Shown: in pieces, positions 570 through 5,341 of the stretch
Layout: each line of letters begins with the position of its first letter
Numbering within the stretch: the stretch's first letter is position 1
Assembly (NCBI GenBank): GCA_027335515.1
Contig: DAHWHT010000388.1
Span: forward strand, 1-5,341
From: Clostridia bacterium
GTDB lineage: Bacteria > Bacillota_E > RBS10-35 > JAJYVN01
Length of the DNA: 5,341 nt
Direction of reading: 5' to 3'
Program-made: the position numbers and the translations under genes
The notes under the pieces: model-generated
The model's database searches: none
What the model saw: only the letters and a program-made list of their open reading frames with translations
What the model was told of the DNA's origin: nothing

Positions 570-794
570 CGGCCAGGGCCGGCAGCGACGGTGCGCCGCG
601 CGGGTAGGGCGTTCTGGAGGGCTTGTGGAGCGGCCCGCGGCACGCCGGTTGTGCGCGCCCGCCACCGGCGCCCTGCGTGGCGCGTCGTGACGGCGGCAGC
701 CCGCTCGGCACGAACTCGGCAGTCTCTGGTCAGCGGCCCGGCTGTCGGCCAGCCCGGCAGCCCGGTATGCTCCGGCGTACAGGGGGTGAGAGGG

Positions 795-1028
795 ATGGCA
801 GATGTGGGGAAGCTCCAGGCGCTGCGGGACGCCTGCGCCAAGGATGCGGGGCTTCGTCACCGGCTGGAGCAATCGCCGGACGAGGTTCTGCGGGAACACG
901 GCATCGCGCTGGGCGAGGGCGTGACCTTTGCGGCCATGGCCAAGGCGATCCTCGGCGGTGCGTTGACAGAGGCCGAACTCAACGCCATGGCCGGCGGTAT
1001 CGAGGTTTCGTCGTTTCAGTGGGGGTAA
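795..1028 (+). CDS. RiPP precursor-like peptide 1 (Nif11/NHLP-type leader, core IEVSSFQWG)
   Basis: A 77-residue peptide. Residues 1-68 form a charged helical leader (KLQALRDAC at 6-14, PDEVLRE at 28-34, EGVT at 41-44, AKAILGG at 49-55) ending in AGG at 66-68. What remains is a 9-residue tail, IEVSSFQWG. This resembles Nif11 and nitrile-hydratase-like leader peptides, whose leaders recruit modifying enzymes and are cut after Gly-Gly by a C39-type peptidase transporter. The frame is open further upstream, but homology to the other two copies begins exactly at ATG 795, and a purine-rich stretch (AGGGGGTGAGAGGG, 781-794) directly precedes it. Copies 2 and 3 follow on the same strand. The tail has two Ser residues but no Cys, so any modification is unknown. 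The RiPP role is inferred; the leader resemblance and paralogy are seen. Confidence 0.82.
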   Translation: MADVGKLQALRDACAKDAGLRHRLEQSPDEVLREHGIALGEGVTFAAMAKAILGGALTEAELNAMAGGIEVSSFQWG

Positions 1029-1114
1029 GTCGGTGCATATCCCTTGGTGCCCCACGCGGCTCCTGGCAGTTCGCGGGGTGAGCGACGCCGAGGGCCCGGA
1101 CGCCGCCGGGTCGA

Positions 1115-1130
1115 TACCGGACGAGGTTCT
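1115..1130 (+). repeat. Short relic of a further precursor copy (possible)
   Basis: The gap between precursors 1 and 2 contains CCGGACGAGGTTCT (1117-1130), identical to 876-889 in precursor 1, where it encodes the conserved PDEVL leader segment. TACCGGACGAGGT (1115-1127) is likewise identical to 1518-1530 in precursor 3. No open leader frame surrounds it. It may be the scar of an unequal recombination or deletion between tandem copies. It is short, so chance in GC-rich DNA cannot be excluded. Confidence 0.45.
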
Positions 1131-1145
1131 AACCAGGCGAGCCCT

Positions 1146-1397
1146 ATGGCCGGGCAGGCGAAGCTGCAGGCGTTGCGGGACGCATGCGGGCGAGACGCGG
1201 TGCTACGGGCGCGGTTGGAGGCCACTCCAGACGAGGTGCTGCGGGAGTTCGGCGTCGTGCCGGATGTGGGCGTGACGGCCGCGGCGTTGGTCAGGACGAT
1301 CGTGGGCGGTGAATTGGGCGAGGTCGACCTCGGTGCCGTGGCCGGCGGCGTCGTCTCGATGGGTTGGGACCTGACGTTTACGAAGAAGCTTGATTGA
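1146..1397 (+). CDS. RiPP precursor-like peptide 2 (Nif11/NHLP-type leader, core VVSMGWDLTFTKKLD)
   Basis: An 83-residue paralogue of the flanking peptides. Leader residues 1-68 keep KLQALRDAC (6-14), PDEVLREFGV (28-37), a hydrophobic stretch (45-53), VGGEL (53-57) and the terminal AGG (66-68). The tail is the longest of the three, VVSMGWDLTFTKKLD, with one Ser and two Thr and no Cys. Its DNA is nearly the same as precursor 3 over the first half: 28 bases at 1165-1192 equal 1458-1485. This indicates recent duplication. The hydrophobic stretch is more diverged (TAAALVRTI, against TAGTVAKAI in copy 3). The start ATG 1146 is set by alignment with the other copies; the upstream AGGCGAG (1136-1142) is only a weak ribosome binding site, and it sits just after the relic of a further copy. 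Function as a modified-peptide precursor is inferred. Confidence 0.8.
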   Translation: MAGQAKLQALRDACGRDAVLRARLEATPDEVLREFGVVPDVGVTAAALVRTIVGGELGEVDLGAVAGGVVSMGWDLTFTKKLD

Positions 1398-1438
1398 AGC
1401 CCTGGCATTCTGTCGGCAAACGGAAGGAGACGAGCCGG

Positions 1439-1678
1439 ATGGCGGATGCGAGCAAGTTGCAGGCGTTGCGGGACGCATGCGGGCGGGACGCGGGGCTGCG
1501 GGCGCGGTTGGAGCAGTTACCGGACGAGGTGCTGCGGGAGTACGGCGTCGTGGCGGGCGAGGGCGTGACCGCGGGGACGGTGGCAAAGGCGATCCTCGGC
1601 GGTGAGCTGAGCGAAGCGGAGATCAGCCGGTTGGCAGGCGGCCTCTGTCCTCCCGCAGCCCTCGGATACGACGACTAA
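1439..1678 (+). CDS. RiPP precursor-like peptide 3 (Nif11/NHLP-type leader, core LCPPAALGYDD)
   Basis: A 79-residue third member of the tandem family, starting 41 bases after the stop of copy 2. The leader is again 68 residues long with KLQALRDAC, PDEVLREYGV, GEGVT, AKAILGGELSEAEI and the final AGG at 66-68. The tail is LCPPAALGYDD, the only core with a Cys, which could take part in a thioether, thiazole or disulfide if modified. The start ATG 1439 has the clearest ribosome binding site of the three, AAGGAG at 1424-1429, nine bases upstream. Leader Cys14 is present in all three copies. Whether the three genes share one transcript is not certain, but their spacing and common strand allow it. 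No maturation enzyme follows downstream; the next gene is on the opposite strand. Confidence 0.82.
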   Translation: MADASKLQALRDACGRDAGLRARLEQLPDEVLREYGVVAGEGVTAGTVAKAILGGELSEAEISRLAGGLCPPAALGYDD

Positions 1679-2056: not shown

Positions 2057-2515
2057 CTACGCGTCGCGCCCGGCGTGCTCGCCTTTGACAAGACGGACCA
2101 GCGCGTCACGAGGGGCGATGACAGGGATGATCGTAGCCGCTGGCGGGGCCGGTACCTCGCGAAGTGCCAGCAGGTGCTTGTCGCTCGCGACCAGCGGATC
2201 CGCATGGGCAGCAACGGCTGCCTCTACGACGTGGTGGTCGTCGGGATCGTTGGGGATCAACGCGACCCTCGCAAGCGGCTGGACGGCCAAACACGACGGG
2301 TGTGACACCAAGGCCTGGACCGCGCGTTGCCGCGTCTTCCGGTCGCCCAGGCGTGCGAATTTCGACCGGGCGAGAACTGAGCCGAGTTCGGCTGCGAGAG
2401 CGGGCGAAACGGCCAAGTAGTGGCCTGAAAATACGGTTTGCAAGAGGCGGCCTTCGGCGTGATCAGGGTAGATCAGGGCGGACACCAAGGCGCCGGTGTT
2501 CAAGACGACGATCAC
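2057..2515 (-). CDS. PIN-domain protein, VapC-like putative toxin with altered active site
   Basis: A 152-residue protein of the PIN-domain class annotated as putative toxin components (COG1569-like). Active members are Mg-dependent ribonucleases. Visible: strand 1 with VVLNTGALVSAL (3-14), SPALAAELGSVL (37-48) with the conserved Glu43, the acidic cluster NDPDDHHVVEAA (89-100), and ASDKHLLAL (110-118). The normal start motif is D-T-N; here it is N6-T-G8, so the first catalytic Asp and the following Asn are both changed (codon AAC instead of GAC for residue 6). The other acidic positions D90, D92, D93 and D112 are kept. The start is GTG at 2515, overlapping the stop of the upstream small gene as GTGA, which suggests translational coupling. 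No strong ribosome binding site of its own is seen. It may be a weakened or inactive toxin. Family confidence is high; activity is unknown. Confidence 0.85.
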   Translation of the reverse strand: MIVVLNTGALVSALIYPDHAEGRLLQTVFSGHYLAVSPALAAELGSVLARSKFARLGDRKTRQRAVQALVSHPSCLAVQPLARVALIPNDPDDHHVVEAAVAAHADPLVASDKHLLALREVPAPPAATIIPVIAPRDALVRLVKGEHAGRDA

Positions 2516-2703
2516 CGCCCGGCTCTGTGAGCTTCAATCTCGCTCTCCACGTCCTCCGGCGTGATGCCAGCCCGCTTCGCTCGACGGCCAATCAGGGCCC
2601 ACAGCCGGCGGAACTCACGGTCCCGTGAAACGGGAGCGGCCGGCTGCCCGACCGGGCCGTTCTTCGCCTGAGTCTTTGCCGGCCTATCCTGAGTCGCGGC
2701 CAT
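2512..2703 (-). CDS. Small antitoxin-like protein upstream of the PIN gene
   Basis: A 63-residue protein with a disordered, Pro/Ala/Gln-rich N-terminus (1-27) and a charged helical C-terminus (about 30-63) containing WALIGRRAKRAGITPEDVES. Small proteins with such a GITPEDV-type helix often sit directly before PIN toxins of this class and are taken to be their antitoxins; this is a context-based call, since no DNA-binding fold can be read with confidence. The chosen ATG at 2703 has a matching AGGGGGT (minus strand, 2717-2711) six bases or so upstream. A longer frame starting GTG 2772 would add 23 residues but has no better site. Its stop TGA overlaps the PIN start by four bases, typical of a two-gene toxin-antitoxin operon. 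An AbrB, RHH or Phd domain is not evident. Confidence 0.7.
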   Translation of the reverse strand: MAATQDRPAKTQAKNGPVGQPAAPVSRDREFRRLWALIGRRAKRAGITPEDVESEIEAHRAGR

Positions 2704-3481
2704 CGGGACCACCCCCTGCATGCACGGCGCCACATGGCCAGGTAGCACCGACGCTGCGGGTACAGACGGCACACGGGGCCACGGTCGTCCCCAGTAGTGG
2801 ATGCCGACCTGGCCGGCTGAGCCTCGAACAGGACCACGGCGCGCTGGATCTCCGCCTCGGTTGACGCCGAAGTGGGCCGGAGCTGGCGCGTAGCCGTCCG
2901 TGGTCCGGCCTGGTCGGCCGGAACTTCAGCGACTGGTGTCTGCGGGGCAGGCCCCTGCACCCCGCCGAACGGGTCCGTGAGGTCGAGCACCCCCGCCACC
3001 CAGGCCGCGTTGGGCCTCTACCCTACCTGGCGGACGCTTGGATGGAAAGTCTTGCCTTGGCCGAAAATGTCGCATAACGACTGTGCCAGTCCAACAGGGC
3101 CACCTGCGCGTGTCAACCCAAAAGGGACCCACCTGCATGTGGTCTGTCCGCCGCACCCTTTATACAAGGGGACCAGGGGCAGGGTGTGGGATCGTGTGGG
3201 ATTCCCCTCCCTTGAGTCTTTGGCGGTCGGCAGGTTGTGGCCCGCCGTTGCCCCGGTTGCCTGGCTCGTGGTGATGGCGAACCTGTTGGGCGAACTTGGC
3301 GATCTCTTTGCGGCGATCGCCGCGGTGCGCGCGCCGTTCCCGATGTTTGCGGATACGCTGGATGGGTTGTTCTTTGGTGCGCCGGGACCGGTCGCCGCTT
3401 CGCGCACGTTGCCAGCAGCGGACGATGTGGATAGCCTTTGATCGACGTGTCCGTACAACCGGCCCCGCGGAGGTGGCCGCC
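2704..3481. other. Stretch without a recognisable gene
   Basis: No frame matches a known family. The best candidate is a minus-strand frame opening at GTG 2999 (MAGVLDLTDPFGG..., with STEAEIQRAVVLFEAQ further on). It has GC-rich third positions down to about 2700, but it lacks a ribosome binding site and then runs in another frame over the antitoxin gene, so it may be a broken fragment. Between 3000 and 3480 every strand and frame looks like low-information GC-rich sequence. A 10-base-period doublet of GTGTGGGAT occurs at 3184-3202. Confidence 0.45.
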
Positions 3482-4441: not shown

Positions 4442-4558
4442 TACCGCTACCGCCTTCAGTCGTCCTCATTCCCGCCAGTCCCCTGCTCGCGCACCGCGCC
4501 GGGGCTTCCCGACCGACGGGACCGTGACCTTTCCGTTTCCAGTTCGTGCTGGTTTTTG

Positions 4559-4608
4559 GTGGCCATTTGTGTCGAGTTTATCGTGGCCGTTTACACTCGC
4601 GAGTGGCC
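4559..4608 (-). repeat. IS21-type terminal repeats (three GTGGCC units)
   Basis: GTGGCC occurs at 4559-4564, 4583-4588 and 4603-4608, each followed by a related stretch (ATTTGTGTCGA, GTTTACACTCG, ACGCAAGACTCG). GTGCTGGTTTTTG directly precedes the first. Repeated, closely spaced motifs containing TGGCCAC with a nearby CCAGCAC are usual at IS21-family ends, where the transposase binds. Position upstream of the IstA start on the minus strand fits one element end. The outer boundary and any target duplication could not be located. Confidence 0.5.
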
Positions 4609-4793
4609 ACGCAAGACTCGCTTCGCCGTGGATGGCCAGCCCTTCGGCGGTAGGGATCTCACCTACTCCGCGTGGTCGACTTCATGGCGCACACTTCCCT
4701 TGCTTGGGGTAGTATCAGGCGCTAAGGCGCCGGGGATGATCAAACCACCGGGTTGACAGATGGCGGGGGAGGTGCAATGGCAGCATTGGGAAG

Positions 4794-5157: not shown

Positions 5158-5341
5158 TCACGGCTTCTTATCGGTTGGTGACCGACTGCGGGCAGGGTCC
5201 AGCAGAATGTCGTAGTGGCGCCCCATGTCGCGGTAGGCTCGGTTCAGCACCGGGTCGTAGATGTCGGCCTTGAGCACGCCGTCCTTGAGGTTGTCCAGGA
5301 CCAGGCGTCGCACCGTTCCGCCGAAAAAGGCGAATGCCATC
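5158..5341 (-). pseudogene. istA: IS21-family IstA transposase, catalytic-domain fragment, truncated; runs off right edge
   Basis: Entering from the right edge, the minus strand encodes about 60 residues of the IstA integrase core: AFAFFGGTVRRLVLDNLKDG, VLKADIYDPVLNRAYRDMGR and HYDILLDPARSRSPTDKKP. The D of LDNLK is the second catalytic acid of the DDE fold. Full IstA proteins continue after DPAR...KDK with RVERP and over a hundred more residues including the catalytic Glu. Here a TGA at 5160-5158 follows KKP, next to a short AT-rich patch (ACATTTAAAATTT, 5146-5158), so the C-terminal side is lost. The first Met visible (5340) is likely internal, with the true start beyond the window. It lies on the wrong side of the other IstA fragment to be the same gene. 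Confidence 0.8.

Follow-up and report, generated by a model that had tools for sequence, protein, structure and literature searches.

Recurring short tails behind shortened NHLP-type leaders in a family of probable orphan double-glycine precursor peptides

Our analysis of a 5,341-nucleotide stretch of DNA (the window) centers on three tandem genes for small peptides that share one leader and end in unrelated tails. Compared by sequence across the family, these tails of 6–15 residues, which contain few Cys, Ser or Thr, are not hypervariable; they are mostly of a few recurring types that stand behind differing leaders. We consider it very probable that the peptides are exported double-glycine precursors of NHLP descent. 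With moderate confidence, we favor the reading that these orphan genes encode precursors which are processed in trans and yield short products belonging to a small, recurring set.

The three genes, their putative processing sites and the Shine-Dalgarno-like stretches are arranged as follows.

785–789, plus strand: Shine-Dalgarno-like GGTGA, 5′ of peptide 1
795–1028, plus strand: precursor peptide 1, 77 aa, ATG start; leader 795–998, tail IEVSSFQWG 999–1025
963–998, plus strand: LTEAELNAMAGG codons of peptide 1, L(X)4L motif and double-glycine processing site
1146–1397, plus strand: precursor peptide 2, 83 aa; leader 1146–1349, tail VVSMGWDLTFTKKLD 1350–1394
1314–1349, plus strand: LGEVDLGAVAGG codons of peptide 2, L(X)4L motif and double-glycine processing site
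1424–1429, plus strand: Shine-Dalgarno-like AAGGAG, 5′ of peptide 3
1439–1678, plus strand: precursor peptide 3, 79 aa; leader 1439–1642, tail LCPPAALGYDD 1643–1675
1607–1642, plus strand: LSEAEISRLAGG codons of peptide 3, L(X)4I version of the motif and double-glycine processing site

The first-pass annotation had described three peptides with a 68-residue leader ending in AGG, followed by unrelated tails, and the open reading frames (ORFs) and their alignment agree. The intergenic gaps are 117 nt (peptides 1–2) and 41 nt (peptides 2–3). At the DNA level, a 218-nt direct repeat is present in three copies, at 784, 1135 and 1428; measured against the reference copy, the other two show 69% and 75% identity. 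The peptide alignment gives 57% identity between peptides 1 and 2 and 62% between peptides 1 and 3. Leader dN/dS values among the three genes, calculated with our own script, are 0.29, 0.43 and 0.52, which indicates that these frames evolve as protein. Upstream of peptide 2 we found no Shine-Dalgarno-like stretch, and no promoter-like site was found at the window locus, a weak signal because shuffled sequences also average 0.0. Just 5′ of peptide 2, 16 bases (1115–1130) match the codons for PDEVL in the leader (874–889) at 88%, perhaps a remnant copy or a chance match.

The same annotation took the cores to be hypervariable, which the comparison contradicts: all three window tails recur behind leaders that are 53–58% identical, and homologues conserved through the tail were found, tail by tail, for each of the three. 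Tail 3, LCPPAALGYDD, has an identical CPPAALGYD at locus L001 (7491–7727) of the MAG Bacillota bacterium FK2.bin46, with leaders 53% identical. Tail 1, IEVSSFQWG, has a homologous LEILSFQW at locus L013 (8450–8698), also with leaders 53% identical. Tail 2 has a homologous ...IGWDLT in database protein P0012, a truncated record with a 45-residue leader, and the leaders are 58% identical over this incomplete record. When each window tail was compared with 11 outside tails, none of 2000 shuffles reached the observed best score. Across 15 precursors, a set that includes one close paralogue pair (L013a/b), the mean best tail–tail score was 36.7, compared to 16.7 ± 1.1 for shuffled tails, and none of 500 shuffles reached it. 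Left out of this set were P0008, P0011 and P0013 (identical or almost identical to the L002, L001 and L013 copies), P0001, P0004 and P0007 (the window itself), the broken L013 copy, two NHLP-type precursors of locus L014, and P0014 (138 aa, with Pfam labels PF02979 and PF00934). Sorted by eye and after the fact, the 15 precursors give five tail types.

Type A: CPPAALGYD (n = 2)
Type B: S[FV]QW (n = 3)
Type C: [GN][WY]DL[TQ] (n = 3; P0010 is weak, with none of its pairs among the best 25)
Type D: FEH, including FEH(VWEP) (n = 4)
Type E: AFDA[YF][ML] (n = 3)

The leaders do not track tail class, as their mean identity is 57% within types (16 pairs) and 54% between types (89 pairs). In the CPPAALGYD pair, five of nine codons differ, with five synonymous and no nonsynonymous changes; pN for the leaders of this pair is 0.30. 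The SFQW pair differs at three of its four codons with the encoded residues unchanged, as read from the sequences themselves, since the path-based count of our script routes the serine change via other residues and is meaningless here. Such codon changes suggest tails of long standing under constraint and speak against both hypervariability and recent transfer. Two further database proteins, P0002 (SVQW tail) and P0012 (GWDLT tail), may form a second tandem locus resembling that of the window, because the longest contig listed for each is 7,032 bases. A text search for the tail strings gave no RiPP paper by title among the matches listed, and the excerpts of the literature matches listed for NHLP, orphan and conserved-core wording held no description of recurring short NHLP tails.

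An alternative, which we judge unlikely, is that these are diversifying orphan Nif11/NHLP precursors with hypervariable cores served by one promiscuous enzyme. This arrangement would resemble that of the prochlorosins, described in the excerpted text of PMC10783134 as hypervariable precursors with one promiscuous modifying enzyme. The window family and the prochlorosin/Nif11 group (TIGR03798) have in common many precursors, a conserved leader with a GG site, and a presumed enzyme encoded apart. The window's combination of one leader and three unrelated tails, the orphan placement, and the single YcaO and single C39 match in FK2.bin46 would all fit. However, the tails recur by class across lineages behind diverged leaders, the codon changes in CPPAALGYD are synonymous only, both TIGR03798 and TIGR03793 score below cut-off, and FK2.bin46 has no LanC-like match. 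Conserved tails on drifting leaders favor specific products over a combinatorial library.

Profile comparisons place the 68-residue leader as a homologue of the nitrile-hydratase-type (NHLP/proteusin) leader, shortened in the middle and outside the curated model. A seven-row profile retrieved 14 database proteins, including three from the window itself, and a profile of 15 family members, A7, matched nitrile hydratase alpha (1v29) with a best E of 2.5e-8, which is the sum of two individually weak stretches. This match is centered on D-x-x-x-R-x-x-x-x-P-x-x-V-L-x-E-x-G. Profile A7 also matched the solved NHLP leader 8tb1 with an E of 2.7e-5 (profile 7–70 against chain 13–87), the family leader being ~11 residues shorter in the middle, and hhalign against an alignment of six NHLP-type precursors gave a probability of 97.6. 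Window peptide 1 alone, searched against the PDB, found no NHase or NHLP chain.

Curated models score the peptides low. The top NCBIfam match for all three is TIGR04351 (TOMM_nitrile_2, putative TOMM peptides), within residues 17–48, but the scores of 23.9, 17.7 and 19.5 bits for peptides 1, 2 and 3 lie under its cut-off of 65; the model number was absent from the literature searched by text. Peptide 1 scored 18.7 bits with TIGR03793 (NHLP, cut-off 50.9) and 12.6 bits with TIGR03798 (Nif11, cut-off 32.3), neither of which reported peptides 2 and 3, and 14.9 bits with NF038399 (cut-off 40). Membership in TIGR03798 or TIGR03793 was thus not supported, all scores being below the curated cut-offs, and we ruled out Nif11 membership on this score. 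The first reading of the leader as a mixture of NHLP-like and Nif11-like features holds for the NHLP-like part, on the profile and hhalign results, and fails for the other: the ‘Nif11-like’ feature is the motif preceding C39 sites that is common to both groups, and the ancestry is NHase/NHLP.

The family thus shares with NHLP/proteusin precursors (TIGR03793) an NHase-alpha-derived leader, three N-terminal helices (predicted here), the L(X)4L motif, a double glycine closing the conserved part, and a C39 ABC exporter (here in the relative FK2.bin46). It differs in having a leader of 68 rather than ~80 residues that scores below the TIGR03793 cut-off, in its Cys/Ser/Thr-poor tails, which are short and recurrent rather than hypervariable, and in the orphan, scattered placement of its precursors. 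The CxxCSC metal motif is absent, and position 14 holds the only Cys of each window leader.

An AlphaFold2 model built from 15 sequences (mean pLDDT 76.5, pTM 0.58) predicts helices at 4–16, 18–26, 28–34, 45–54 and 59–66. The pLDDT falls below 50 at 69–71 and 73–79, so low confidence begins at the leader end. The best Foldseek match of this model is 8tb1, and it is weak (E 3.1). In the excerpt of PMC12455567, the NHLP leader of MprE is a three-helix bundle with an L(X)4L motif, and the first helix and this motif are the two features that one YcaO needs. Both a first helix and an L(X)4L-type motif are retained in the orphan leaders, with helix residues that, as far as tested, differ from those in that excerpt.

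The L(X)4[L/I] motif lies at leader positions 57 and 62 in the window, with Ile at 62 in peptide 3. Together with xGG, it is present in 13 of 13 database proteins checked (P0001–P0013, including the window's own three); two family members (L013 4521–4811 and 6127–6414) end in AAG instead of GG. Haft et al. (2010) report a motif ahead of the Gly-Gly site of NHLP precursors (PMC2887384, in excerpt), and the acidic/hydrophobic register before GG in ALTEAELNAMAGG, ELGEVDLGAVAGG and ELSEAEISRLAGG fits it, judged by eye against the Figure 6 legend there. The L(X)4[L/I]-xGG register, kept in all 13 proteins, makes it improbable that the genes instead encode small cytoplasmic proteins in which a helical, NHase-derived domain carries a C-terminal interaction tail that is specific to its class and stays uncleaved. 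Such proteins would account for a leader predicted to fold and for conserved tails, and for the window host an exporter was not seen, but the solved NHLP leader 8tb1 is among the profile's matches and FK2.bin46 has an NHLP exporter.

Export and processing in trans, as we favor, would require machinery encoded elsewhere. Among the window ORFs scanned with Pfam and NCBIfam, no maturation or export gene was recognized, in line with the first-pass annotation, and the orphan placement that it proposed also held up. Its suggestion of a distant RiPP enzyme and C39 peptidase finds its counterpart in the related MAG FK2.bin46 and not in the window's own genome. A profile search of genome contigs gave two loci, both in FK2.bin46, where orphan precursors lie on contigs C61, C259 and C216 (L013, with three intact copies and one broken), and two NHLP-type precursors lie on C264 (L014). 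By our ORF calls, the L014 cluster contains the following, all on one strand.

AAA/STAND-like protein
NHLP-type precursor: 69.7 bits, over the cut-off of 50.9
6369–6647, minus strand: NHLP-type precursor with tail IIIIVIVR, 40.7 bits, below the cut-off of 50.9, adjoining YcaO-TfuA
YcaO: TIGR00702 202 bits, over the cut-off
TfuA: Pfam over the cut-off; NF033432 216 versus 235
HlyD protein: Pfam over the cut-off; TIGR03794 147 versus 156
NHLM_micro_ABC1 with a C39 domain: 946 bits, cut-off 853

We take the IIIIVIVR tail to resemble the hydrophobic streptococcal SHP pheromones. The whole of FK2.bin46 has one C39 match and one YcaO match, both in this cluster. No LanC-like match and no MNIO (PF05114) match was found in FK2.bin46, and the lanthipeptide and MNIO routes were rejected on these grounds; such gene absences are soft, as the completeness and contamination of the MAG are not given. 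There are 10 radical SAM matches in FK2.bin46, and all 10 ORFs were scanned, with matches to E 1e-20. Seven pass the cut-off of MoaA, MiaB, HemW, LipA, anaerobic sulfatase maturase, RlmN or QueE models, one barely passes TIGR04053 (395.7 versus 395), a radical SAM/SPASM model with no named role, and two (NirJ1/AhbC-like and Rv2578c-like) pass none. A peptide-maturing radical SAM enzyme was rejected, as none of the 10 passes a model named for peptide maturases (E ≤ 1e-20).

An important caveat is that the NHLM exporter, none of which was recognized in the window, lies in FK2.bin46 on a contig other than those of the orphan precursors. This exporter is above cut-off in 4 of 154 genomes of the class and the precursor family is found only in FK2.bin46 (1 of 154), so a single genome carries the case for their co-occurrence. 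The resemblance between the orphan leaders and the NHLP leaders encoded next to YcaO is remote, which leaves a common processing route unproved. The single YcaO-TfuA cluster of FK2.bin46, which also encodes NHLP-type precursors and a C39 exporter, is of the kind described for thioamidated RiPPs in the excerpt of PMC8120280, a survey that reports one Firmicutes cluster, but the tie between this cluster and the orphan precursors is one that we infer. FK2.bin46 is very unlikely to be the window's own genome and is better regarded as a relative, because the closest DNA matches between the two reach 84% over ~120 bases and 80% over ~125, GC content is 0.68 in the window versus 0.72–0.78 in 13 of its stretches, and tetranucleotide correlations (r) of the window with its four main contigs are 0.44–0.49, compared to 0.55–0.83 for its own short stretches. 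In the phylum sample, apart from FK2.bin46, weak matches (E 2.8e-7 to 3.3e-6; L039–L042) came from 4 of 398 genomes, and all four look like ordinary NHLP-type precursors with other tails. Weak matches on FK2.bin46 contigs C228 and C164 (E 0.8 and 1.8) looked unrelated once translated, and plasmid records gave no match.

Locus L013 (C216) carries a methyltransferase gene (6714–7688) between precursors of two tail classes, which raises the question of whether a dedicated methyltransferase acts on the family, as happens in proteusin side-chain N-methylation (PoyE/AerE) or in the borosins. The best PDB match of this gene product is 7rc5 (E 1.2e-9, residues 28–263), with a general PrmA match at 4.5e-4. 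We take entries 7RC2–7RC6 to be AerE, the aeronamide pathway enzyme. AerE is described in PMC11285071, in the excerpted text of which accession 7rc5 does not appear. We give this reading little credence: the PDB names 7rc5 no more precisely than ‘Methyltransferase family protein’, no such gene was seen among the ORFs scanned in the window, L001 and L002 (part of the ORFs of the latter two), and although the family profile matches SonA borosin precursors in the PDB (E 0.7–0.9) and Foldseek finds the SonM-SonA complex (E 5.3), the SonA matches are at chance level. L013 also encodes a large protein 3′ of the SFQW-type precursor (9405–12914, plus strand), with TolB-propeller and S41-peptidase matches below cut-off; it is presumably tricorn-like.

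Among six non-peptide window ORFs, the only Pfam matches above cut-off were Resolvase/Recombinase in one ORF and a PIN domain in another; with NCBIfam, run on six ORFs, one PIN-toxin model was above cut-off and the recombinase and IS21 matches were below. Ten further window ORFs had nothing above the Pfam cut-off. The other features of the window are listed here.

3 to ~560, minus strand: incomplete serine recombinase with Resolvase and Recombinase domains, truncated at the window edge; 1–553 has 71% DNA identity to genome G073
1975–2734: 78% DNA identity to genome G070
2057–2515, minus strand: PIN-domain toxin, TIGR00305 34.7 bits versus a cut-off of 29.15
2512–2772, minus strand: small ORF upstream of the PIN-toxin ORF and overlapping it, the two likely a toxin-antitoxin pair
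3124–3178: 55 bases, 93% identical to genome G072
4551–4660, minus strand: Rfam group II intron match, sub-threshold (24.7 bits versus gathering 49)
4596–4692: ~97 bases with 73–83% identity in several genomes of the class of FK2.bin46
5158–5340, minus strand: fragment matching an IS21 transposase model at 52 bits, under the cut-off of 160, with DNA matches in several genomes of that class

The window DNA matches 23 of 154 genomes of this class, via apparent mobile-element pieces and the toxin-antitoxin region, so the class is its probable origin, although mobile DNA may be misleading on this point. A truncated recombinase, an IS21 fragment and further pieces common to several genomes do flank the three genes, and L013 holds a broken copy. 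Even so, we consider it very unlikely that the genes are decaying leftovers in a mobile-element-rich stretch, non-functional in the window host, since the window has three intact frames with dN/dS of 0.29–0.52 and the tails are conserved elsewhere.

Taken together, these observations support a model in which the window genes specify orphan double-glycine precursors of short products. A C39 peptidase/ABC exporter encoded elsewhere would recognize the leader, cut after the double glycine and export the tail; processing in trans by such a remote exporter seems reasonably probable to us. Before cleavage, the YcaO-TfuA pair or another enzyme encoded elsewhere might modify the tail, although YcaO-TfuA modification of window-family tails is a tentative proposal. 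Since the tail types persist as the leaders change, the products would have specific jobs outside the cell, acting most simply as signals or as a defined set of bioactive peptides.

The usual description of a RiPP precursor family is one of a fixed leader and a free core. What is unusual here is that unrelated tails follow one leader within a locus, yet tails persist across lineages as leaders drift. The shortened NHLP-type leader scores below current model cut-offs, and orphan precursors of this kind are probably under-counted. More speculatively, a small fixed ‘vocabulary’ of about five conserved short peptides (types A–E) may be carried on mini-NHLP leaders that are interchangeable, evolve faster and lie scattered over the genome, with one shared exporter releasing the peptides. 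If true, this would invert the usual RiPP pattern and would amount to a multi-word peptide signaling or defense repertoire in high-GC Bacillota. If the pattern holds, the tails would be specific products under selection that can be made and tested directly.
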